A stretch of DNA of 52,112 nt, taken from contig CADDZC010000019.1 in the NCBI GenBank assembly GCA_902812365.1, forward strand, positions 1 to 52,112. Reading direction: 5' to 3'. The position numbers and the translations under genes were made by a program. The notes beneath the pieces were generated by a model, which made no database searches, was not told the origin of the DNA, and saw only the letters and a program-made list of their open reading frames with translations. This document shows, piece by piece, positions 1,344-46,829 of this stretch. Numbering within the stretch: the stretch's first letter is position 1; each line of letters opens with the position of its first letter. Source of the DNA: Acidobacteriota bacterium. GTDB taxonomy: Bacteria > Acidobacteriota > Terriglobia > UBA7540.

Positions 1344-2252
1344 ATGTCAGGGTCTCGTCAGCGCGAGGCGTCGAGCGCCGGGGCGGTGCGGGCGGCCATT
1401 CCCGTCCCTTCGCCGGTGGTGCGGCGCTGGAACGACATTCTGAGCGCCAGCCCCGTCGACCTCAACCAGTTGGGGGGCGTGATCGGCGAGAATGCACCGC
1501 TCGCCAACCAAATCCTGAAACTTGCCAACTCATCGCTTTTCAACCTGCCGCTACCCGCTTCGAGCATCGAGCAGGCCGTCGTGGCCATTGGGGCCGACAA
1601 TCTCCGCACTCTGGTTCTCGCTTGGGAGCTCGTCGAATGGGTGGCCACACGACTCCGGGCGGAGGACTCCGACGCCTTCTGGCGGCACGGTTTTCTCACT
1701 GCCTTCTTCAGCCAGCATCTCGCCCAGTGGCTTCTTCCCGCTGCCGCCGAGCAGGCGTATTTGGCCGGCTTCTTGCACGATATTGGCCGGGCTCCCCTCC
1801 TGATCGCTGCTGCGCCATCCGCGGCCACCCTCTCGCCGCTCGCCGGCGTCGAAGAGTCGCTCGACGCCGAGGAAGCGGCGCTGGGAGTTAACCATTGCGA
1901 GATCGGCGCCGATCTGGGCGCGCGGTGGGGCTTTCCGCCGCCGCTCGTTGCCGTCTTCGCCGGTCACCATGACCGGAGCCTGGCCGCGCAAGCCCCGCTT
2001 GTCCGCATCGTCGCCGTCGCGGACGCTCTCGCCCAGTCAAGACAACCGGAACTGGCAGGGGAGCGTTCGGGGGTAGCCGGAAGGACGGCGAGTGAGCGGT
2101 TGCTCGAGCGCTATTTCCCCGGACTCGACGCGCCGGCCCGCGCCGCCCTGGCCGATGCTTTAGAGTCCGCATACGCCGACGTGTCGGAGGAGCGGACGCG
2201 CGGCCTCGCCGGCTTTTTGACGCCCGCCCATCCATTACGCCTTTCCCGGTAG
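1344..2252 (+). CDS. HDOD domain signalling protein
   Basis: A 302-residue protein that is almost entirely an HDOD (HD-related output) domain. The evidence is the N-terminal segment LNQLGGVIGENAPLANQILKL, SSIEQAVVAIGADNLRTLV, the LAGFLHDIGR motif and the later FAGHHD. HDOD proteins are signalling modules often linked to motility, chemotaxis and cyclic-di-GMP networks, although this domain is degenerate relative to HD-GYP phosphodiesterases. The frame stays open to a TTG at 1212, but AGTGAGGA sits six to seven bases before ATG 1344, which decides the start. It lies just upstream of the flagellar operon on the same strand, which suggests a motility or surface-sensing role. That link is inferred from position only. 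Confidence 0.82.
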   Translation: MSGSRQREASSAGAVRAAIPVPSPVVRRWNDILSASPVDLNQLGGVIGENAPLANQILKLANSSLFNLPLPASSIEQAVVAIGADNLRTLVLAWELVEWVATRLRAEDSDAFWRHGFLTAFFSQHLAQWLLPAAAEQAYLAGFLHDIGRAPLLIAAAPSAATLSPLAGVEESLDAEEAALGVNHCEIGADLGARWGFPPPLVAVFAGHHDRSLAAQAPLVRIVAVADALAQSRQPELAGERSGVAGRTASERLLERYFPGLDAPARAALADALESAYADVSEERTRGLAGFLTPAHPLRLSR

Positions 2253-2521
2253 CATTTTCTGCCCGCCATCCGCAGTCGCCAGCCAGCTTTCGGCTGGGGC
2301 GCGGCCCGGGATGGGGCTCCACCGTGGGCCCGGCTAAGCCGACGGCCGCTCGAAATCGAGGGCGGCAACTCTTGCCGAGCGGATCGCCGCTCGCCCGGCA
2401 AGATGGGTCTGTCGCCGCTGGCGCTCACCTCTCCACTTCCCGCAACCGCCGGCCAATCAACCACTTCGCCGCCGCCGCGGTTTGGCCCGCCGCCTGCATC
2501 AGCTCAAGCGGAGTGCAAACC
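2253..2521 (+). other. Leader/intergenic region ahead of the flagellar operon
   Basis: These 269 bases lie between the HDOD gene and flgF. They are strongly GC-rich with no believable gene. Any promoter for the rod and ring genes probably lies here. The best candidate is the sigma-54-like element at 2482-2498, described separately. No sigma-28 motif is seen in this gap. Confidence 0.4.
2482..2498 (+). promoter_or_regulatory. Candidate sigma-54 promoter upstream of flgF
   Basis: TTGGCCCG, four bases, then CTGCA gives the GG-N10-GC spacing of -24/-12 promoters; the consensus is YTGGCACG-N4-TTGCW. RpoN is encoded in this window, and rod genes are sigma-54 dependent in several phyla. The predicted start site would fall near 2508, leaving a leader of only about 14 bases before the flgF ATG. 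In DNA this GC-rich, such matches occur by chance. Confidence 0.3.
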
Positions 2522-3280
2522 ATGGATAGTGGATTTTACGCGGCGGTATCGGGAGCGGTGGCCAGAACCGACGCCATCGATTTGGTGGCCAACAACATTG
2601 CCAATACCGCCACCACCGGTTACAAAGCCGAGCGCGAGTTCTACCAAACCCTGGTGGCGACCCCGCCGAGCGCCCGGATGTCGCCCTTGAATCGCGCCGT
2701 CAACAATTACGGCATTCTCGGCGGCACGGTCGTCGATCTGGCAGCCGGATCCATTCAGTTTACCGGCAACAAACTTGATCTGGCGCTGGAAGGCCCCGGG
2801 TTCATCACCGTGGAAACGCCCGCCGGCATTCGCTACACTCGCAACGGCAGCTTGCGCCTCGGAGCCCGAGGCGAGTTGCTCACCCAAGACGGCGGCAAGG
2901 TGCTCGCCGTACCGGAAAATCGCAAAGCCAAGCCGCAACCCATCGTGCTGCCCAACGGAACGATTTCGATCTCCACCGACGGAACCGTGTCCGTCAATGG
3001 GGCGATCGTGGCCCGAATGAAGCTGGTGGATTTTCCGAAAGGCACGCCCCTCCTGCCCGAGGGCAGCTCGTACTTTACGGCGCCGGCGCAGGCGGAAAGG
3101 CCCGCCGCCGGCGTGGCGGTGCGCGAAGGGGCTCTGGAATCCTCCAACTACAACCCCGTCGAGGGCACCGTGGACCTGATCACGCTGCAACGCACGAGCG
3201 AAATGCTGAACCAGGCCATTCGGATCTTTTACAACGATTTCGACCAGCCCGCGGCGCAGGAGATCCCGCGGATCGCGTGA
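2522..3280 (+). CDS. flgF: Flagellar proximal rod protein FlgF
   Basis: A 252-residue protein of the FlgF/FlgG rod-hook family. The N-terminus carries the family signature VANNIANTATTGYKAER. The middle has the beta-rich FlgE/F/G core (LALEGPGFITVETPAG, YTRNGSL). The C-terminus has the amphipathic helix LITLQRTSEMLNQAIRI, which packs with the N-terminal helix in the rod. It starts at ATG 2522, preceded by GCGGAG; an upstream in-frame extension to 2324 lacks family similarity. The position directly before flgG and its shorter length support FlgF rather than FlgG. It is built into the periplasmic rod of the basal body after export by the flagellar type III system. Confidence 0.93.
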   Translation: MDSGFYAAVSGAVARTDAIDLVANNIANTATTGYKAEREFYQTLVATPPSARMSPLNRAVNNYGILGGTVVDLAAGSIQFTGNKLDLALEGPGFITVETPAGIRYTRNGSLRLGARGELLTQDGGKVLAVPENRKAKPQPIVLPNGTISISTDGTVSVNGAIVARMKLVDFPKGTPLLPEGSSYFTAPAQAERPAAGVAVREGALESSNYNPVEGTVDLITLQRTSEMLNQAIRIFYNDFDQPAAQEIPRIA

Positions 3281-3317
3281 GCTGTAACTTTCGATCAACC
3301 CCACTGAGGAGACCGCT

Positions 3318-4109
3318 ATGTTCCGAGCTCTTTACACGGCTGCCAGCGGCATGGAAGCGCAGCAGACCAACCTGGATAACATCGCCAACAACCTGGCGAA
3401 CGCTTCGACCACCGGCTTTCGCGCCCGACGCATGCAGTTTCAGGATTTGCTCTACCAGAACGTGGTCGTGCCCGGCTCGGCGGCCACCCAGCAGACCAAC
3501 ATCCCCACCGGCCTCGAACTGGGTTTGGGCACCCGCTCCGCCAGCACCGAAATCCTCCAGACGCAAGGCGATTACGTGACCACCAACAATCCCTTGGACC
3601 TCGTCATTCAAGGCCAGGGATTCTTCCAGGTGCTGCGCGCCGATGGCACGATCGCCTACACCCGCTCCGGGGCCTTTCACCTGAACGAAACCCGCCAAAT
3701 CGTCACCGCCAACGGCGATCCGCTCCAGCCCTCCATCACCATACCTCCCGACGCTACCACCATCAGCATCGGGCAGGATGGCACCGTCTCCGTCACCGAG
3801 CCGGGACAAACCCAGGCGCAACAGGTCGGCAGCATCCAACTGGCGCTTTTCCCCAATCCGGGCGGCCTGCTGAGCCTGGGCAACAACCTGTTTTTCCCCA
3901 CCACCGCCTCGGGGCAGCCGATCGTCGGCCAGCCGGGCGGGGCGGACGGTCTCGGCTCGCTGCAGCAAGGGATGCTCGAGCAATCCAACGTCGATGTGGT
4001 CAATGAATTCGTCAACATGATCTTGACGCAGCGGTCGTATGAAGCGAACTCGCGCGTCGTCAACGCGGCCAACCAGATGTTTCAGGATCTGAACAACATT
4101 CCGAAGTAA
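3318..4109 (+). CDS. flgG: Flagellar distal rod protein FlgG
   Basis: A 263-residue protein, the usual FlgG length. It begins MFRALYTAASGMEAQQTN and continues with the signature DNIANNLANASTTGFRARR. The core LVIQGQGFFQVLRADG and the C-terminal NEFVNMILTQRSYEANS, the hallmark FlgG/FlgE C-terminal helix, are intact. TGAGGAGA lies about six bases before the ATG. It forms the distal rod that crosses the peptidoglycan and passes through the P and L rings encoded just downstream. It follows flgF after 37 bases and is very probably in the same transcript. Confidence 0.97.
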   Translation: MFRALYTAASGMEAQQTNLDNIANNLANASTTGFRARRMQFQDLLYQNVVVPGSAATQQTNIPTGLELGLGTRSASTEILQTQGDYVTTNNPLDLVIQGQGFFQVLRADGTIAYTRSGAFHLNETRQIVTANGDPLQPSITIPPDATTISIGQDGTVSVTEPGQTQAQQVGSIQLALFPNPGGLLSLGNNLFFPTTASGQPIVGQPGGADGLGSLQQGMLEQSNVDVVNEFVNMILTQRSYEANSRVVNAANQMFQDLNNIPK

Positions 4110-4123
4110 GTGGGGGGGCGTGG

Positions 4124-5140
4124 ATGGGTTCTCTTCTCGGTCGAAGAGCGGGCGCCGGATCAGGGCGCGGCGGCAATTTTCGGGCCTTGAACGCCTGCCG
4201 GGCACTTCTTTTCGCGATCGGTGTGGCCGCGGTCTCGCCCCGGGTGCTCGCTGCCCCCCCGCGCCTGCGGCTGCTGGCCGACGTCGAAGTTCGAAGCCAC
4301 GAGATCACACTCAAGGATCTGCTACCCCCGGAGGCGCCCGCGGCGCTCCTCGCCCAGGCCCTCCGGATTCGGCTGGGCAGCGCCCCGCAGGCCACCCGCA
4401 TCCGGCGCCTTTCGAAGGAGGAAATCCAGAATGCGCTCGTCGACGCGCCGGAGCTGCTGGCCGCCGTGGAGATTCCCGACGTCATCCGGGTGCGCCGCTA
4501 CCATCGCGCTCTCACCCCGACGGAGCTCGTGGCCGCCCTTGACGCCGCCCTGGGGCGCTCCGGCAGACTCGATCCCCGATCGCTCGGGCTCGATTCCCTG
4601 GCCCTTCGCGCGCCGGTTTACGTTACCACCGACGATCCTGGGCTGCAGGTGACACAGATTGAATTCGATTCGCTGCACCGGCGCACTACATTCCGGCTAT
4701 GGACGTCGAAAGAACCGCAGAATCTGCCCTTTTATATCACCCTCTCGAGCCGGTTGAAATTCCCGGCGTTGGTGGCGACGCGCGACCTGGCGCCGGGGGA
4801 GGTGGCGCGGGCGAGTGACTTCGCCGTGGCGACCCGAGCGCGGAGCGAAAACGCTTCCCTCGAACCGCCGGCCGCCGCGAGCCTGGTGGGGCTTGAAGCG
4901 CGCCAGCCGGTGCGCGCCGGTGACGTTGTCGAGCGCTCGATGTTCGCGCCGGAACTGATGGCGCAGCCGGGGCTGCCGGCCAAGCTCACCATTGCCGGAA
5001 ATGGCTTTCGGATCGAAACCACGGTGATTCCGCTCGAGCGGGGCTATTACGGGCAGCAAATCCGCGTTCGCGACCCGGACACCCGTCGGGTCATGGCGGC
5101 TGAGGTGGTGGGGAAGGGACAGTTGCGGGGAAATCTGTAG
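4124..5140 (+). CDS. flgA: Flagellar basal-body P-ring assembly chaperone FlgA
   Basis: A 338-residue periplasmic protein, longer than enterobacterial FlgA (about 220). The N-terminus has a basic stretch and a hydrophobic segment (about residues 24-42) ending VLAAPP, a likely Sec signal. The C-terminal half holds the SAF/FlgA fold: LVATRDLAPGEVARASDF, EARQPVRAGDVV, then the terminal block with RVRDPDTRRVMAAEVVGKG, typical of the FlgA C-terminus (VrN..S.r...a.V). FlgA helps FlgI polymerise into the P-ring. The middle region (about residues 60-190) is less conserved. A run of G's before ATG 4124 acts as Shine-Dalgarno. It starts 14 bases after flgG. Confidence 0.88.
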   Translation: MGSLLGRRAGAGSGRGGNFRALNACRALLFAIGVAAVSPRVLAAPPRLRLLADVEVRSHEITLKDLLPPEAPAALLAQALRIRLGSAPQATRIRRLSKEEIQNALVDAPELLAAVEIPDVIRVRRYHRALTPTELVAALDAALGRSGRLDPRSLGLDSLALRAPVYVTTDDPGLQVTQIEFDSLHRRTTFRLWTSKEPQNLPFYITLSSRLKFPALVATRDLAPGEVARASDFAVATRARSENASLEPPAAASLVGLEARQPVRAGDVVERSMFAPELMAQPGLPAKLTIAGNGFRIETTVIPLERGYYGQQIRVRDPDTRRVMAAEVVGKGQLRGNL

Positions 5141-39848: not shown

Positions 39849-41309
39849 ATGGATCGGCCGCAACCCAAACTCGGACTCAACGTCAAGCTGGCTCAAAAGC
39901 AGATTTTGACGCCCGGGCTCGTGCAGATGGTGACCGTGCTCGCGCTCAACAAGCTCGAGCTGCGCGAGATGATCAACCAGGAGATGATCGAAAATCCGGT
40001 GCTCGAAGAGCTGCCCGAGGAGATGAGCCTGGCCGAAGAAGCGCGCGAGAAGGTCGAGTCGGAGGGCGAGATTCCGCTCGCCCGCCAAGACGGGCAGCCC
40101 GCCGACCCGGACGGGAAGGCCGACTCGTTTGAGCAGGTCGATTTTGGCGAGTTCTTTCACGACTATCTCGACCCCGGCTACAAGTCGCCGGCGGCGGAGA
40201 TCATCGAGAGGCCGTCCTTTGAAAACTTCCTTTCCAAGCCGGCTTCCCTGGCCGACCATCTGGAGTGGCAGTTGAATCTTTCCGTGGCCTCCGATCCGGT
40301 TCGGGAGGCGGCTTATTCGATCATCGGCAATCTCAACGAGGACGGTTACTTGACGGCCACGCTCGAGGAAATCGCCCAGACGGGCGAGCACCGCCTCGAA
40401 GACGTCGAGGAAGCGCTCCGGCTCGTTCAGCAGTTCGATCCCTTGGGGGTGGCGGCGCGCGACGTCCGCGAGTGCCTGCTGATCCAGCTCCGCACGCTGG
40501 CTCCGGAAAACACGCTGGCCCAGCGGGTGGTTTCCGACTTCCTTCCCCAACTCGAGGCCAAGCAGCTCAAGGAGATTGCCAAGGCGCTCGACCGTCCCCT
40601 GCCGGTGATCGAGCGCTGCCTGGAGACGATTCGCGCCCTCGATCCGCGGCCCGGCCAGCGCTACAACGCCACCGAGCCCCGCCTGATTGAACCCGACGTG
40701 GCCTTCGTGAAGATCGGCGACGCGTACCACGTGGTGATGAACGAGGACGGCCTGCCGCAGTTGCGCCTGAGCCATCACTACCGCCGGATGCTCGAGGAGA
40801 ACACCACCAGCCGCGACGTGCGCAATTATGTGAAGGAGCGCTTCACCTCCGCCCTGCAGCTGCTGAAGAACATCGAGCAGCGCAAGCAGACCATCACCAA
40901 GGTGTGCGAAGCGATCATTCGCCGCCAGACCGAGTTTCTGGATAAGGGGATTGACTACCTGCGGCCGATGATGATTAAGGAGGTGGCCGAGGAGGTAGGC
41001 GTTCATCCCTCCACCGTCAGCCGCGCCGTGGCCAACAAGTATGCTCATACGCCCCAGGGCGTTTACGAGTTGCGCTATTTCTTTTCCGAAGCCGTGCAGG
41101 GCCCTTCCGGCAGTTCCACCTCGCTCATCAACTTGAAGCGCACCGTCAAGAAGATGATCGAGGAGGAAGATCCGGCTCACCCGCTGACGGATCAGGAGAT
41201 CACGAATCGCTTGCGGGCGATGGGGATCTCTGTCACCCGCCGGACGGTGGCCAAGTACCGCGAAGACATGAAGATTCCGAGCACTCATCAGCGCCGGAAG
41301 AAACCATGA
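39849..41309 (+). CDS. rpoN: RNA polymerase sigma-54 factor RpoN
   Basis: A 486-residue sigma-54. Region I begins with the Gln/Leu-rich KLGLNVKLAQKQILTPGLVQ and LELREMINQEMIENPVLEEL. An acidic region II (about 60-110) follows. Region III has the core-binding domain (ADHLEWQLNLS, NLNEDGYLTA, QQFDPLGVAARDVRECLLIQL) and the HTH VAEEVGVHPSTVSRAVANKY. The RpoN box appears as VTRRTVAKYRED near the end. It directs transcription from -24/-12 promoters with enhancer-binding activators. The open frame begins at 39804 over the lptB stop, but ATG 39849 fits the family. A -24/-12-like element occurs ahead of flgF in this window. Confidence 0.96.
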   Translation: MDRPQPKLGLNVKLAQKQILTPGLVQMVTVLALNKLELREMINQEMIENPVLEELPEEMSLAEEAREKVESEGEIPLARQDGQPADPDGKADSFEQVDFGEFFHDYLDPGYKSPAAEIIERPSFENFLSKPASLADHLEWQLNLSVASDPVREAAYSIIGNLNEDGYLTATLEEIAQTGEHRLEDVEEALRLVQQFDPLGVAARDVRECLLIQLRTLAPENTLAQRVVSDFLPQLEAKQLKEIAKALDRPLPVIERCLETIRALDPRPGQRYNATEPRLIEPDVAFVKIGDAYHVVMNEDGLPQLRLSHHYRRMLEENTTSRDVRNYVKERFTSALQLLKNIEQRKQTITKVCEAIIRRQTEFLDKGIDYLRPMMIKEVAEEVGVHPSTVSRAVANKYAHTPQGVYELRYFFSEAVQGPSGSSTSLINLKRTVKKMIEEEDPAHPLTDQEITNRLRAMGISVTRRTVAKYREDMKIPSTHQRRKKP

Positions 41310-41361
41310 CGCTCCCGAGCCCGCGCGACGTCCCTCTCGGGGATTCCGAGGAGGTGCATCC

Positions 41362-41901
41362 ATGCAGATCGAGTACACCGGGCGGCAAATGGAAGTCACT
41401 CCGGACTTGCGACAGTACACCGAGGAGCGGCTCGGCAAACTTCAGCGCCTCTTGCGCGACCGCTGCTCCCTGAAGGTCATTTTGACGGCGGAACGCCACC
41501 GCCGGATCGCCGAGGTTACCCTCCAATTCCGTGACCACACGCTGGTGGCCGTGGAAGATACCACGGACCCGCGCAGCTCCATCAACACCTGCCTGGACCG
41601 GCTGGAGCGGCAAGTGGTCAGCCTGTTCGAGAAGAAGCGGACCCGAAAGCGCCGGCCGAAGCCCACCTCCGCCGTGTTGCTGAACGTCTTGGGAGCCCCG
41701 GGCGGCGACCATGAAGAGCGCGCCGTGCTCGAGACCGAGCGGATTCCCATCAAGCCGCTGAGCGTCGATGAGGCTTTGGATTCTCCCGACTTTGTGCGGA
41801 ACGGAGTGGTGGTGTTCCGCAACAGCGAGACCGAGCGCGTGAACGTCATCTATCGGCGGGCCGACGGTAACCTGGCGCTGATCGAGCCGGAAGAGCAATA
41901 G
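41362..41901 (+). CDS. hpf: Long ribosome hibernation promoting factor HPF
   Basis: A 179-residue long-form HPF. The N-terminal 100 residues have the S30AE fold: MQIEYTGRQMEVTPDLRQYTE, RLGKLQRL, ILTAERHRRIAEVTLQFRDHT. After a basic linker, the C-terminal dimerisation domain contains RIPIKPLSVDEAL, VVFRNSETERVNVIYRRADG and NLALIEP. It binds the 30S decoding site and the long form joins two ribosomes into inactive 100S dimers. GAGGAGG lies six to eight bases before ATG 41362, the strongest ribosome site in the cluster. It sits between rpoN and rapZ, the order conserved in Proteobacteria. Confidence 0.95.
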   Translation: MQIEYTGRQMEVTPDLRQYTEERLGKLQRLLRDRCSLKVILTAERHRRIAEVTLQFRDHTLVAVEDTTDPRSSINTCLDRLERQVVSLFEKKRTRKRRPKPTSAVLLNVLGAPGGDHEERAVLETERIPIKPLSVDEALDSPDFVRNGVVVFRNSETERVNVIYRRADGNLALIEPEEQ

Positions 41902-41993
41902 CCGGTGGGCGGGAGCGTGCTGTTCAGATGCCAAGCCAAGGGCGCCGGATCCGCCGCCCCCGGCGGGCCGCCGGCGAGGGCGGCGCAACCCGT

Positions 41994-42893
41994 ATGAAGA
42001 ACTCCGCCGGCCGGAAGTCATCCAAACCCTTTCGCCAACTGGTCGTGATTACCGGGCTGAGCGGGTCGGGCAAGGGTTCGGTGCTGAAGGCCTTTGAGGA
42101 CCTGGGCTTTTACTGCGTGGATAACTTGCCGGTCGGGCTGATCCCGAAGTTTGCGGAAATCTGTTCGCTGCAAAGCGACGGCATTGAGCGCGCGGCGGTC
42201 GTCGTGGACATCCGCGAAGGCGAGTCGCTCAGCCAGCTTCCTGCCGTCTACCAGCAATTGGCCCAGCGGCATCCCAAACCGTCTCTGGTTTTCCTGGAAG
42301 CGTCCGACCAGGCATTGATTCGCCGCTTTGAAGAAACGCGGCGGCCCCATCCCCTGGGGCGGCATCTGCCGGTGCGGGAGGGCATTCGCCTCGAGCGGAT
42401 GCTGCTGAAGCCGATGCGCCGCCTGGCCGACGTTGTGATCGACACGACGCGCATGAACGTCCACGAGCTGCGGGAGCTGGTTCAGGCGCGGTTCGGAGGC
42501 GTTGAGGCGCGGAAGATGATGCTGATCTCCGTGGTCTCCTTCGGGTTCCGCTTCGGAGTGCTGCCGGAGGCGGACCTGGTGTTCGACGTCCGCTTCCTGC
42601 CCAATCCCAATTACCTCCCGCAGTTGAAAAATAAGACGGGCCGCGACCGCGCCGTCCAGCGGTACATGGAAAAATATCCGCAAACTCGTGAATTTGTCGC
42701 CCGGGTGACCGATTTACTGGTTTACCTGTTGCCGCACTACATTCGCGAAGGCAAGAGTTACCTGACCATCGGCTTTGGCTGCACCGGCGGACGCCACCGC
42801 TCCGTGGCGATTGCCGAGCGCATTGGCAAAGCTTTGGCCGGGGAAGGGTACCGGACCAAAATCGTGCACCGAGACGCCGAGCGGCAGGTTTAA
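41994..42893 (+). CDS. rapZ: RapZ (YvcJ) nucleotide-binding RNase adapter
   Basis: A 299-residue P-loop protein. Walker A is VVITGLSGSGKGSVLKAFED (residues 17-36), then FYCVDNLPVGLIPKF and a Walker B-like VVVDIREGE. The C-terminal domain has SFGFRFGVLPEADLVFDVRF, LPNPNYLPQLKNKTGRD and SYLTIGFGCTGGRHRSVAIAE in parts, the RapZ hallmark. In enterics RapZ senses GlcN6P and directs RNase E to the small RNA GlmZ; in other phyla it is less defined. The frame opens at ATG 41928 with an Arg-rich extension, and ATG 41994 gives the usual N-terminus. It follows hpf with no ptsN between. Confidence 0.94.
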   Translation: MKNSAGRKSSKPFRQLVVITGLSGSGKGSVLKAFEDLGFYCVDNLPVGLIPKFAEICSLQSDGIERAAVVVDIREGESLSQLPAVYQQLAQRHPKPSLVFLEASDQALIRRFEETRRPHPLGRHLPVREGIRLERMLLKPMRRLADVVIDTTRMNVHELRELVQARFGGVEARKMMLISVVSFGFRFGVLPEADLVFDVRFLPNPNYLPQLKNKTGRDRAVQRYMEKYPQTREFVARVTDLLVYLLPHYIREGKSYLTIGFGCTGGRHRSVAIAERIGKALAGEGYRTKIVHRDAERQV

Positions 42894-42896
42894 GAT

Positions 42897-43586
42897 ATGG
42901 AGTCGAAAAGCAGCCGGCGGCAGAGCGCCGGGGGCGAAAGCCGGGGCTCGAGCCGGCCGGCGGCCCCCATCGAGTCAACCAGCGGGGTCGAGGGCCGCAG
43001 CGCCGGCTCGGCAGGCTGCGAGACTGCGCCGGATACGGAAGCTATGGACACGAGCGACCAGCTTTTTGTGGACGAGCGTTGGGTGTTCTCGGCCGGAACG
43101 GCGGCGAGATTGCTCCGAATGAATGAGAGCCGGGTTCGCCGCTTGTTACGGCAAGCCAAGATGAAGGCGCGGAAGACGGCCGACCAATGGGAGATTCCGG
43201 TCAGCGAGATCGAGCGCTGGTCGAGGTATCAGGCCATCCAGAAGTCGGAAAAATTTTTGACCCCGGCCAGCGCCGCCCGGGAGTTGGGCGTCAGCCGGCA
43301 GGCGGTGCATCAGATGCTGCGTGACGGCCGGCTCCCGTCTCGGACGGTCGGATTTCGGCGATTGATTCCCAGAAAAGCGGTGGAGGAAGCGCTTCGGCGC
43401 CGCCGCCATGAGGGTTTATGGACCCTGAGGAAGGCGGCGCACGCGCTGGGCCTGAGCTATCCCCAGGTGTATGATCTGGTGAAGTCCGGCAGTTTGAAAG
43501 CCACCAAGATCGGCTCTTATTACTTTGTGCCGATCGATGAGGTGAAGGCCTTCAAGAATGCCAGGCCGGCGGAACGGGCCAGGTAA
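42897..43586 (+). CDS. Protein with three tandem excisionase-type helix-turn-helix units
   Basis: A 229-residue protein. A disordered, Ser/Gly/Glu-rich N-terminus (1-55) is followed by three clearly related units of about 47 residues at about 63-108, 120-166 and 174-219. Each has the pattern hSxxxAAxxLxxxxxxVxxhhxxGxL...h.P..xV: VFSAGTAARLLRMNESRVRR, LTPASAARELGVSRQAVHQM and LWTLRKAAHALGLSYPQVYD. This is the MerR/Xis-like winged HTH (helix_turn_helix_17 type), usually found once or twice per protein. It probably binds DNA at an extended site. It starts four bases after rapZ and ends before a hairpin, so it likely shares the rpoN-hpf-rapZ transcript. ATG 43044 is an alternative start that would drop the disordered part. 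Function unknown. Confidence 0.85.
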   Translation: MESKSSRRQSAGGESRGSSRPAAPIESTSGVEGRSAGSAGCETAPDTEAMDTSDQLFVDERWVFSAGTAARLLRMNESRVRRLLRQAKMKARKTADQWEIPVSEIERWSRYQAIQKSEKFLTPASAARELGVSRQAVHQMLRDGRLPSRTVGFRRLIPRKAVEEALRRRRHEGLWTLRKAAHALGLSYPQVYDLVKSGSLKATKIGSYYFVPIDEVKAFKNARPAERAR

Positions 43587-43611
43587 CCGGACGGCCAGCG
43601 CGTCCGTCCGG
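43587..43611 (+). terminator. Terminator-like hairpin after the triple-HTH gene
   Basis: CCGGACGG and CCGTCCGG form a perfect eight-pair stem around a nine-base loop, starting directly after the TAA stop codon. GTTGATT follows, so there is only a partial T-tract. It is a credible 3' end for the lptCA-lptB-rpoN-hpf-rapZ-HTH transcript. The rest of the 225-base gap up to the ABC transporter is GC-rich with no gene. Confidence 0.55.
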
Positions 43612-43775
43612 GTTGATTGACGCCGGGGTGGCGCCGCCACTACTTGAGCCGGCGATCGTGCCGCGCCAGCGAAAGTGAGCGCCGCCGGAAGGCCGCCCCA
43701 GCTCGTCCGCGCTATTCCCTTGGGCGGCCAAGCGTTCCCCGCGGGCCCGGCCGCGCCGGCGGGCGGGATGAGAGC

Positions 43776-43796
43776 ACGTGGCGCAGGATACCACGT
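43776..43796 (+). promoter_or_regulatory. ACGTGG/CCACGT inverted repeat before the MsbA-like gene
   Basis: ACGTGG, nine bases, CCACGT, then TTTTGG: a perfect six-base inverted repeat centred about 25 bases before the start codon. It could be an operator, or a leader hairpin in the mRNA. The following Ts also allow a weak terminator. No regulator can be assigned. Confidence 0.35.
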
Positions 43797-43811
43797 TTTG
43801 GTTGAGGCCGA

Positions 43812-45623
43812 ATGAGCGACGTTCGACGCCTTCTAGGATTCGCCAAACCGTACCGGTTGCGCTTTGGGATGGCGATCGTCCTGATGGCGGTGGTCGGTGC
43901 CTGCGAAGCGCTGATGGCGCTGCTCATTAAACCGGTCTTCGACGTGGTCCTGAAACCGGCTTCGCCCGCCAGCCGCATCCTGCTGTTCAACTGGCCGTTC
44001 GATCACCACCCCATCTACCTTGAAGACTTTATGCCACACTCCGTTCATAACGTGTGGACGGTCATGGCGTTAGCGATTATCGCCGTGACTATTGTCAAGG
44101 GTTCAGCGGAATTTTTCGCCACCTATTTCATCAGTTACGTGGGCCATTCGGTGGTGAAAGACCTGCGGAATCTGCTTTATACCAAAATCATCGAGCAATC
44201 GATGGCGTTTTTCGCCCAGCACCCCACCGGCAAGCTGATGTCCTCGGTGACCAGCGACATCGAGAAGGTCCAGGATGCGGTTTCCCGGGTGTCGGCGGAC
44301 TTCCTGCAAGAGAGCTTTACACTCATCGGCTTGCTGGTTGTTCTGTTCTATTACGACTGGCGGCTGGCGATTGCGTCGCTGGTCAGCGTTCCGTTTGTGG
44401 TGTTTCCATCCTCGACCATCGGTCGCTATATCCGCGCCGCCAGCCGCTTCAGCCAGGAACGGATGGCCGATCTGAACCATATCTTGCAGGAGACCTTCTC
44501 GGGCATCCGGATTGTCAAGGCGTTTGGCATGGAACTGTTTGAGACGCTGAAGTTTAGGGCTGCCAACAAGCGGTTGCTCAAGGTGAACTTGCGCTGGGTG
44601 CGGGCGCAGGCCGCTACCGGCCCGATCATGGAGCTGCTCGGAGCTGTCACGATCGCTGCCTTATTGCTTTACGCGCGCAACGAGATCCAGCACCAGGCTC
44701 AGACGCTGGGCGGTTTCGTAGGATTCCTGTATGCCCTGATCAAAATGTACGAGCCTATTAAGCGCCTAACCGGCGTCAACAACTCCTTCCAGCAGGCGGT
44801 CGGGGCCTCCGAACGGGTTTTTCACTATCTGGATGTGCGTTCGGAGATACATGATCGCCCAGGGGCCATTGTTTTGCCGCGTTTCGAGCGGGAGATCGTT
44901 TTCGAGAATGTGGATTTCGAGTATGACGCCGAGACGGCGATTCTGCGCGGGGTCAACCTGCGGATCCGCAAAGGCGAGGTGGTGGCCATCGTCGGCTCGA
45001 GTGGCGCGGGGAAGAGCACCCTCGCCAATCTCATCCCGCGCTTTTTCGACGTCACGCGAGGGCGTATCTTAATGGACGGACATGACATCCGCGACGTATC
45101 GGTGAAATCGCTCCGGGCTCAGATTGGGATGGTGACGCAGGAGACAATTTTGTTTAACGACACTGTTTTCAATAACATAGCTTACGGACTGGAGAACCAG
45201 AGTCCGCAGGCGGTGGAAAACGCCGCCCGCGCCGCGCTGGCCCACGATTTCATCGTCGAGATGCCCCGCGGCTACCAGACGTTAATTGGTGAGCGGGGTC
45301 AAAGGCTCTCGGGCGGACAGCGGCAGCGGATTGCGATTGCGCGGGCTCTGTTGAAAAACCCGCCGTTGTTGATCCTCGACGAAGCCACGTCGGAATTGGA
45401 CACCGAGTCTGAGTTATTGGTACAAAAGGCTTTAGCTAACCTCATGGCCGGCCGGACGGTGCTGGTGATCGCTCATCGACTGTCGACGGTTCGCCGCGCG
45501 GACCGGATTGTGGTGCTCGACCGAGGGACGATCTCGGAGGTGGGCACCCACGAGGATTTGGTCAATCGCGGCGGTATCTATCAGCGGTTGCACGAGTTAC
45601 AATTTGTAGACGCTGAGCCTTAA
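43812..45623 (+). CDS. MsbA-like lipid-flippase ABC exporter
   Basis: A 603-residue type I ABC exporter with a membrane domain of six TM helices (about residues 1-330) fused to an ATPase. The ATPase has VAIVGSSGAGKSTLANLIPR (Walker A), QETILFNDTVFNNIAYGL (Q-loop region), LSGGQRQRIAIARALL (signature), LLILDEATSELDTESE (Walker B) and VLVIAHRLSTVRRAD (H-loop). It fits the MsbA/lipid A export group by length and by the EFFATYFISYVGHSVVKDLR-type coupling region. Its place beside the LPS transport genes supports lipid-A flipping, though a general multidrug or lipid exporter is possible. ATG 43812 has GAGG five bases upstream. Confidence 0.88.
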   Translation: MSDVRRLLGFAKPYRLRFGMAIVLMAVVGACEALMALLIKPVFDVVLKPASPASRILLFNWPFDHHPIYLEDFMPHSVHNVWTVMALAIIAVTIVKGSAEFFATYFISYVGHSVVKDLRNLLYTKIIEQSMAFFAQHPTGKLMSSVTSDIEKVQDAVSRVSADFLQESFTLIGLLVVLFYYDWRLAIASLVSVPFVVFPSSTIGRYIRAASRFSQERMADLNHILQETFSGIRIVKAFGMELFETLKFRAANKRLLKVNLRWVRAQAATGPIMELLGAVTIAALLLYARNEIQHQAQTLGGFVGFLYALIKMYEPIKRLTGVNNSFQQAVGASERVFHYLDVRSEIHDRPGAIVLPRFEREIVFENVDFEYDAETAILRGVNLRIRKGEVVAIVGSSGAGKSTLANLIPRFFDVTRGRILMDGHDIRDVSVKSLRAQIGMVTQETILFNDTVFNNIAYGLENQSPQAVENAARAALAHDFIVEMPRGYQTLIGERGQRLSGGQRQRIAIARALLKNPPLLILDEATSELDTESELLVQKALANLMAGRTVLVIAHRLSTVRRADRIVVLDRGTISEVGTHEDLVNRGGIYQRLHELQFVDAEP

Positions 45624-45920
45624 CTCCGATTCGTGGTAATATAACTACGGAGCGCTGAAATTGTTCAAGAATCATGGGAAAAGCCTGCCGGCCAGCGACC
45701 CCGCGAACCGTCGGATCGGCTGGCCCGGGCGATGGCCGCCCCGCAGTCGAAAATTGACCGCCCGGACATGAGGCTCTGCTGCTCGGCCGGAAGCAGAAGA
45801 TCGGCTCCGGCGGAAGCCGCTAGATCCTTTGTTGTTGAAAATAAATAACTTGTACAGATCTAAGGGCGCCGATTTCAACACCTTCGAGCGCTCAAAATAG
45901 TGCCCCGTGGCGACTGATTC
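45624..45920 (+). other. Intergenic region between the ABC exporter and yicC
   Basis: About 297 bases without a believable gene. GGCCAGC and GCTGGCC form a seven-base inverted repeat with a 22-base spacer near 45692-45727. An AT-rich patch follows at 45828-45863, with TTGTTGTTGAAAATAAATAA, probably the promoter area for the yicC-gmk-rpoZ-coaBC operon, although no clear -10 is found at the right distance. No tRNA or riboswitch fold is recognisable. Confidence 0.4.
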
Positions 45921-46829
45921 ATGATCTGCAGCATGACCGGTTACAGCATGGTCCGGGTGGAGGAGCCGGAGTATTCGCTCGCGGTCAGCATTAAGAGCAT
46001 CAATCATCGATTTCTCGACCTCCAGATGCGGCTTCCGCCCGGCTTCGATGCCTTTGAGCCGATGGTGCGGCGGCTGGTGAAGGAGCACATGAGTCGCGGT
46101 CACGTTGAGGTGACGGTAGGCCTGGAGCGGGCGGCGCGGGGTGAGTTACAATTGAATCGCTCGCTGCTCGAGGCCTATCTGGCGGCTTGCGAGCGCCTGC
46201 GGAGCCAGTTTGGCTACACGTCGGATCCGGATCTGGTTGCTTTGCTTAGAGTTCCAGGGATTGTCGAGGGTGCCAACGGCGCCCTTTCACCGGGCGAGCT
46301 CGACCGCTTTCGGCCGGTGCTCGAAACGGCGGTCGCCGAGGCGCTGCGGCGTCTCAACGAGATGCGGGCCCAGGAAGGTGTGGCCCTCGAGCGCGACCTG
46401 CGCTCGCGCCTGGAGCGGCTGGAGCGGCTGCGGGATGAGATTGAAGCCAACGCGCGGCGCGTCCCGCAGTTGTACCGCAAACGTCTGGAGGCCCGGCTCC
46501 GCGAGCTGCTCGAGGGCGCGGCCGGGGCGGGGGAGCTGGATTCCGGCCGCCTCCACCAGGAGGTCGCTTACTTGGCCTCGCGCTCGGACGTGACCGAAGA
46601 GTTGACGCGCCTGCGGAGCCATCTCGAGCAGACTGAGCGCCTGCTCGGGGAAAGCTCGGAAGTGGGTAAGAAGCTGGACTTTCTGTTGCAAGAGATGAAC
46701 CGCGAGGCGAACACCGTGCTGTCGAAGACCACCGATGTGCCGGAGGTCGGACCGCTCATGGCGCGCCTGGCGCTCGACATGAAGGCCGAGATCGAAAAAC
46801 TGCGTGAACAGACGCAAAATATCGAGTAG
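45921..46829 (+). CDS. yicC: YicC-family endoribonuclease
   Basis: A 302-residue protein with the YicC N-terminal block SMTGYSMVRVEEPEYSLAVSIKSINHRFLD (shown in parts), then LRLPPGFDAFE-like text. The C-terminal DUF1732 region has YLASRSDVTEELTRLRSHLEQ and GKKLDFLLQEMNREANTVLSK, split. A long charged helical middle (about 150-220) resembles a coiled coil. YicC proteins were long unassigned; E. coli YicC is now described as an RNase acting on small RNAs. The gene is regularly found upstream of gmk, as here, with six bases between them. It starts at ATG 45921 after a weak ribosome site. Confidence 0.94.
   Translation: MICSMTGYSMVRVEEPEYSLAVSIKSINHRFLDLQMRLPPGFDAFEPMVRRLVKEHMSRGHVEVTVGLERAARGELQLNRSLLEAYLAACERLRSQFGYTSDPDLVALLRVPGIVEGANGALSPGELDRFRPVLETAVAEALRRLNEMRAQEGVALERDLRSRLERLERLRDEIEANARRVPQLYRKRLEARLRELLEGAAGAGELDSGRLHQEVAYLASRSDVTEELTRLRSHLEQTERLLGESSEVGKKLDFLLQEMNREANTVLSKTTDVPEVGPLMARLALDMKAEIEKLREQTQNIE

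Follow-up and report, generated by a model that had tools for sequence, protein, structure and literature searches.

Several small winged helix-turn-helix (wHTH) proteins of the excisionase and BldC type, among them BldC, lambda Xis, Pukovnik Xis and RdfS, carry one unit per chain; the multi-unit arrays that they build on DNA are assembled from separate molecules and not covalently linked (PMC5859096, PMC11963761). BldC protomers are arranged head to tail on 9-bp direct repeats (PMC5859096), and the filaments of RdfS are likewise head to tail (PMC11963761). In the literature consulted, TraN of plasmid pIP501 (4p0y, 4p0z, 4pm3), whose binding site lies upstream of the transfer origin of the plasmid (PMC4981023, PMC10877727), is the sole well-described case of two such units joined in one chain; its units form an internal two-fold pair and are not placed head to tail (PMC4981023). 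Three linked HTH domains in one chain are present in Cbp1, the CRISPR repeat-binding protein of the Sulfolobales, where they are connected by short linkers and aligned in order along one repeat (PMC10883916).

Here we analyzed an open reading frame at positions 42897..43586 (forward strand; 229 amino acids plus stop) of a 52,112-nucleotide stretch of Acidobacteriota DNA, referred to as the window. Like TraN, the encoded protein combines several excisionase/MerR-like wHTH units in one small chain without an effector domain, but it has three of them instead of two and is chromosomal, and no conjugation genes were seen in the window. With BldC, the Xis proteins and RdfS it shares the single wHTH fold, whereas its units are covalently joined; as the BldC family consists of single wHTH chains, a protein with three units per chain was not assigned to it. 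The likeness to Cbp1 is confined to the three linked HTHs, since Cbp1 is archaeal and belongs to another HTH family, and membership was rejected at an NCBIfam HTH_Cbp1 score of 15.6 bits (E 0.011) against an equivalog cut-off of 140.

Three Excisionase-Type Units Fill the Protein

An earlier note on this DNA had read the protein as three tandem excisionase-type HTH units. Profile searches bear this out: over the full protein, Pfam HTH_17 (PF12728) scored 92.9 bits (E 1.4e-26; cut-off 27) and NCBIfam TIGR01764 'excise' 83.6 bits (E 8.8e-24; cut-off 28.8), both in three stretches, and the same pattern appears three times in the AlphaFold model described below. When each unit was scored singly against the genome, unit 2 (residues 117-171; 43245..43409, forward strand, as are the other two) gave the strongest HTH_17 match with 42.7 bits, followed by unit 3 (residues 172-222; 43410..43562) with 34.3 bits. 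Unit 1 (residues 61-112; 43077..43232) is the most degenerate of the three; with 25.5 bits (E = 6.5e-5) it falls just below the 27-bit Pfam cut-off. The glycines of the turn and the wing are absent from unit 1, which may not bind DNA.

Comparison of the units with each other gave shuffle z-scores of 4.6 (units 1 and 2), 9.3 (1 and 3) and 9.1 (2 and 3); their repetition is therefore not due to chance. However, the pairwise likeness among them is only ∼25-30%, which rules out a recent internal triplication, and unit 2 reached an alignment score of 100 with the single-unit protein of a relative, compared with 51 with unit 3. The segments corresponding to the recognition helices also differ across the units (NESRVRRLL, SRQAVHQML and SYPQVYDLV, respectively).

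The wHTH units fill the chain, and the protein contains neither a further domain nor a long coiled coil. Residues 50-229 are strongly basic, with a pI of 11.0 and a net charge of +18.8. Assignment to the MerR family regulators was rejected, because both the dimerising coiled coil and the effector domain are missing. Likewise, the MADS defence protein Mad1 was discarded as a candidate (NCBIfam MADS1, 18.6 bits versus a cut-off of 80), and a PADLOC match to mad1 (69 bits, three stretches) was taken as a generic HTH_17 match.

Translation Start and Flanking Sequence

Residues 1-49 (42897..43043, forward strand) form a low-complexity stretch. If translated, it would be a disordered tail; otherwise it would be a leader outside the coding sequence. 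The GC content at the second codon position of this stretch is 0.755, close to that of the spacer at 43587-43811 (0.77), while the neighbouring genes range from 0.38 to 0.52. Since this base composition is spacer-like, M50 (43044) may be the true start, which would yield a 180-amino-acid protein consisting almost entirely of the three wHTH units. The ATG at 42897, on the other hand, is preceded by an AGG at a distance of eight bases and lies 3 nucleotides past the rapZ stop codon, so that either start is plausible. The RNA of 42894-43043 folds somewhat better than shuffled sequences (z -2.7; 3 of 200 shuffles were equally good), and the stretch before M50 could be a leader and not coding.

Immediately 3' of the stop codon, a perfect 8-bp inverted repeat (CCGGACGG/CCGTCCGG) with a 9-nucleotide loop was found at 43587..43611 (forward strand). 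The resulting hairpin lacks a U-tract and is possibly a weak terminator.

Predicted Fold and Proposed Arrangement of the Units on DNA

An AlphaFold model of residues 50-229, built on a thin alignment of 8 rows, reached a pLDDT of 78.5 and a pTM of 0.50. All three units fold as winged HTHs in this model, each consisting of a helix-turn-helix, a two-strand wing and a closing helix in identical order, as the earlier note's reading implies. The relative placement of the units is unreliable, because the pTM is only 0.50. An alignment-free run gave a pLDDT of 62, and its Foldseek matches were left out of the evidence.

Comparisons with solved structures place the individual units close to the single-unit proteins. 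In the Foldseek search, TraN was followed by SoxR, Pukovnik Xis, RdfS, HiNmlR, RacA and BldC, amid some unrelated winged-helix proteins, and the single-domain proteins Xis, RdfS, BldC and RacA were matched with a Foldseek probability of 1.00. BldC and Xis are the nearest solved folds of unit 3, which in VIA-align was superposed on the BldC-DNA structure 6ama with Z 9.0 (rmsd 2.0, 53 aligned) and on Pukovnik Xis 4j2n with Z 8.6 (rmsd 2.2, 53 aligned), while unit 2 aligned to MerR-type domains with Z ∼6-6.6. A sequence search of the PDB revealed no relative, the listed matches being at chance level. BFVD yielded the predicted phage proteins A0A8S5MI40, A0A889ISK3 and A0A1C9EI55 (126-188 amino acids), which align across more than one unit of the model and are possibly tandem wHTH proteins themselves.

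From the fold, the charge and the composition of the chain we infer, at about an even chance, an effector-free basic DNA-binding regulator that would lay three joined Xis/BldC-type units along one extended site. By analogy with BldC, RdfS and Cbp1, the units would be placed head to tail on DNA, with one unit per ∼9-10 bp and a whole site of ∼27-30 bp, so that a single chain would do what BldC, RdfS and lambda Xis achieve by cooperative assembly of separate molecules. The differences among the recognition helices would make this site composite and asymmetric, as opposed to a series of three equal repeats. The protein might act as a repressor or bend DNA as an architectural factor, and its own operon is a possible target. 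Against such a serial array speak the lack of direct repeats at 9-11 bp spacing in the flanking sequence, the pTM of 0.50, the two-fold pairing in TraN and the degenerate unit 1; as an orphan known from a single genome, the gene lends the array no support from conservation. A more specific version, in which the protein is a one-chain, fixed-length equivalent of the BldC/Xis filament (a chromosomal regulator with three non-identical units, a directional composite site of ∼30 bp, no dimerisation and an origin in a single lineage), is put forward only tentatively and is somewhat doubtful.

The units could alternatively be arranged as in TraN, with two of them forming an internal pseudo-dimer whose site would be inverted or mirrored; the remaining one, probably the degenerate unit 1, would be an add-on for protein contact or a weak DNA contact, and the protein would still be a DNA-binding regulator. 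In the Foldseek search of the PDB, TraN ranked first (E 3.7e-4 over 116 alignment columns), and its standing as the one well-described two-unit protein in the literature consulted, together with the degeneracy of unit 1, points in the same direction. However, superposition of two units on TraN gave an rmsd of 8.3 over 88 residues, as opposed to 1.6-1.7 for single units, and the inter-unit geometry of the model to which this figure refers is itself uncertain. We regard a TraN-like geometry as unlikely.

Distribution and Genomic Context

No ortholog of the triple wHTH protein was found in any of 38 other genomes of the family, nor in samples of 398 other genomes of the class and 395 other genomes of the phylum, these sets partly overlapping and the genus being sampled by one genome. 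The gene is thus a lineage-specific orphan. The HTH_17 domain as such is widespread (232 of 247 phylum genomes); its best 30 HTH_17 loci, a biased sample obtained with a profile into which the units of the window protein had been built, included no three-unit protein, and a second stretch was seen in two of them at most. A GTDB contig scan with exact 8-residue patterns, which is weak for distant relatives, recovered only a single-unit Synergistaceae protein; IMG/VR likewise contained no relative with the patterns used, and tblastn against phages gave no match at E 1e-3.

The gene lies between rapZ (41928..42893, forward strand; NCBIfam PRK05416, 342.9 bits) and a gene for an msbA-like ABC exporter (43812..45623, forward strand; TIGR02203, 589.8 bits, just below the 602-bit equivalog cut-off). 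Upstream on the same strand are an lptC/lptA-like gene, lptB, rpoN, hpf and rapZ, while msbA is followed downstream by yicC, gmk, coaBC and a uracil-DNA glycosylase-like gene; the rapZ, msbA and yicC assignments were checked by profile score, and the remaining ones come from reading the translations. Co-transcription with rapZ is plausible, since the ORF begins 3 nucleotides after the rapZ stop codon. Rfam gave no match over 41000-46000, and the spacers flanking the gene contain no operator-like sets of direct repeats at 9-11 bp spacing.

In relatives, a ROK-family gene directly follows rapZ in 18 of 29 rapZ loci, often with msbA next; one such ROK protein scored 224.8 bits with Pfam. There is no ROK match in the window, and the three ROK genes compared from the same genome are at most 33% identical to the relatives' post-rapZ ROK protein. 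In the lineage of the window, the slot is thus occupied by the triple wHTH gene and not by a ROK gene. Since a ROK gene holds the slot in so many relatives, the position says little about the targets of the protein. An assembly artefact seems unlikely, because the rapZ and msbA flanks keep the order seen in relatives and the composition fits.

The orphan distribution and the occupation of the ROK slot would also fit a mobile-element remnant, or an RDF or plasmid protein gained by chance, that now does little or nothing at its present location. The top PHROGs match (phrog_66, an excisionase/regulator family, 76.4 bits) and the existence of multi-unit HTH_17 proteins on a plasmid, and perhaps in phages, agree with such an origin. 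However, the contig carries no Phage_integrase match and the window no tRNA, no phage homolog was detected by tblastn and no IMG/VR relative with the patterns used, the frame is intact and the fold is kept in all three units. Moreover, the GC content at third codon positions of the wHTH region (0.77) lies within the range of the neighbours (0.74-0.84), which argues against a recent foreign composition. A remnant is therefore considered quite unlikely. Function as an excisionase was rejected, given the absence of a tyrosine recombinase (Phage_integrase) on the contig and the housekeeping neighbours; together with the lack of a phage relative, this agrees with the earlier note's view that the protein is not a phage factor.

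That note had further proposed a conserved regulator of the envelope and sigma-54 block lpt-rpoN-hpf-rapZ-msbA, for which the adjoining, same-strand rapZ and msbA genes and the 3-nucleotide distance to rapZ speak, but this is very unlikely, as the relatives run the same block without an ortholog of the gene, whether beside rapZ and msbA or elsewhere, an outcome that the note itself had named as a refutation, and the spacers lack an operator-like repeat.

Tandem HTH Arrays in Other Proteins

The triple wHTH protein is probably a transcription regulator with an unusual layout, located between two conserved housekeeping genes. Both HTH_17 domains and their joining in tandem are already known; the triple array is moderately unusual and not a new kind of system. 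If the units bind in series, the protein would represent a naturally occurring covalent array of a small wHTH module that is very common in phages and plasmids. As such it would be useful for understanding how these modules define the length and direction of a site without oligomerisation. As a single orphan from a single genome, it is of limited broader importance.

According to the earlier note, no protein with three units is well described. For HTH_17 arrays of this single fold this holds in the literature consulted, but related arrays do occur, with ∼six units in a Campylobacter protein, three HTHs in Cbp1 (PMC10883916) and two in TraN (PMC10877727). Tandem arrays of the HTH_17 module are thus uncommon, yet exist.

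Among plasmid proteins, the best match to the three-unit core (89% coverage, 27% identity) is the 1127-amino-acid protein WP_253697285.1, encoded at 1612-4995 of the 5.1-kb Campylobacter jejuni plasmid pFORC_084_2 (NZ_CP029055.1). It resembles the window protein in its array of HTH_17 units and differs in having ∼six of them, a long additional C-terminal part and a plasmid location. By eye, its C-terminal half looks like a tyrosine recombinase, with no such Pfam match at E 0.01. Within the phylum, one member encodes a 499-amino-acid protein (631-2130 of its locus) without a catalytic domain, in which units of the HTH_23/HTH_28 type, as found in IS630 transposases, are followed by two HTH_17 units.
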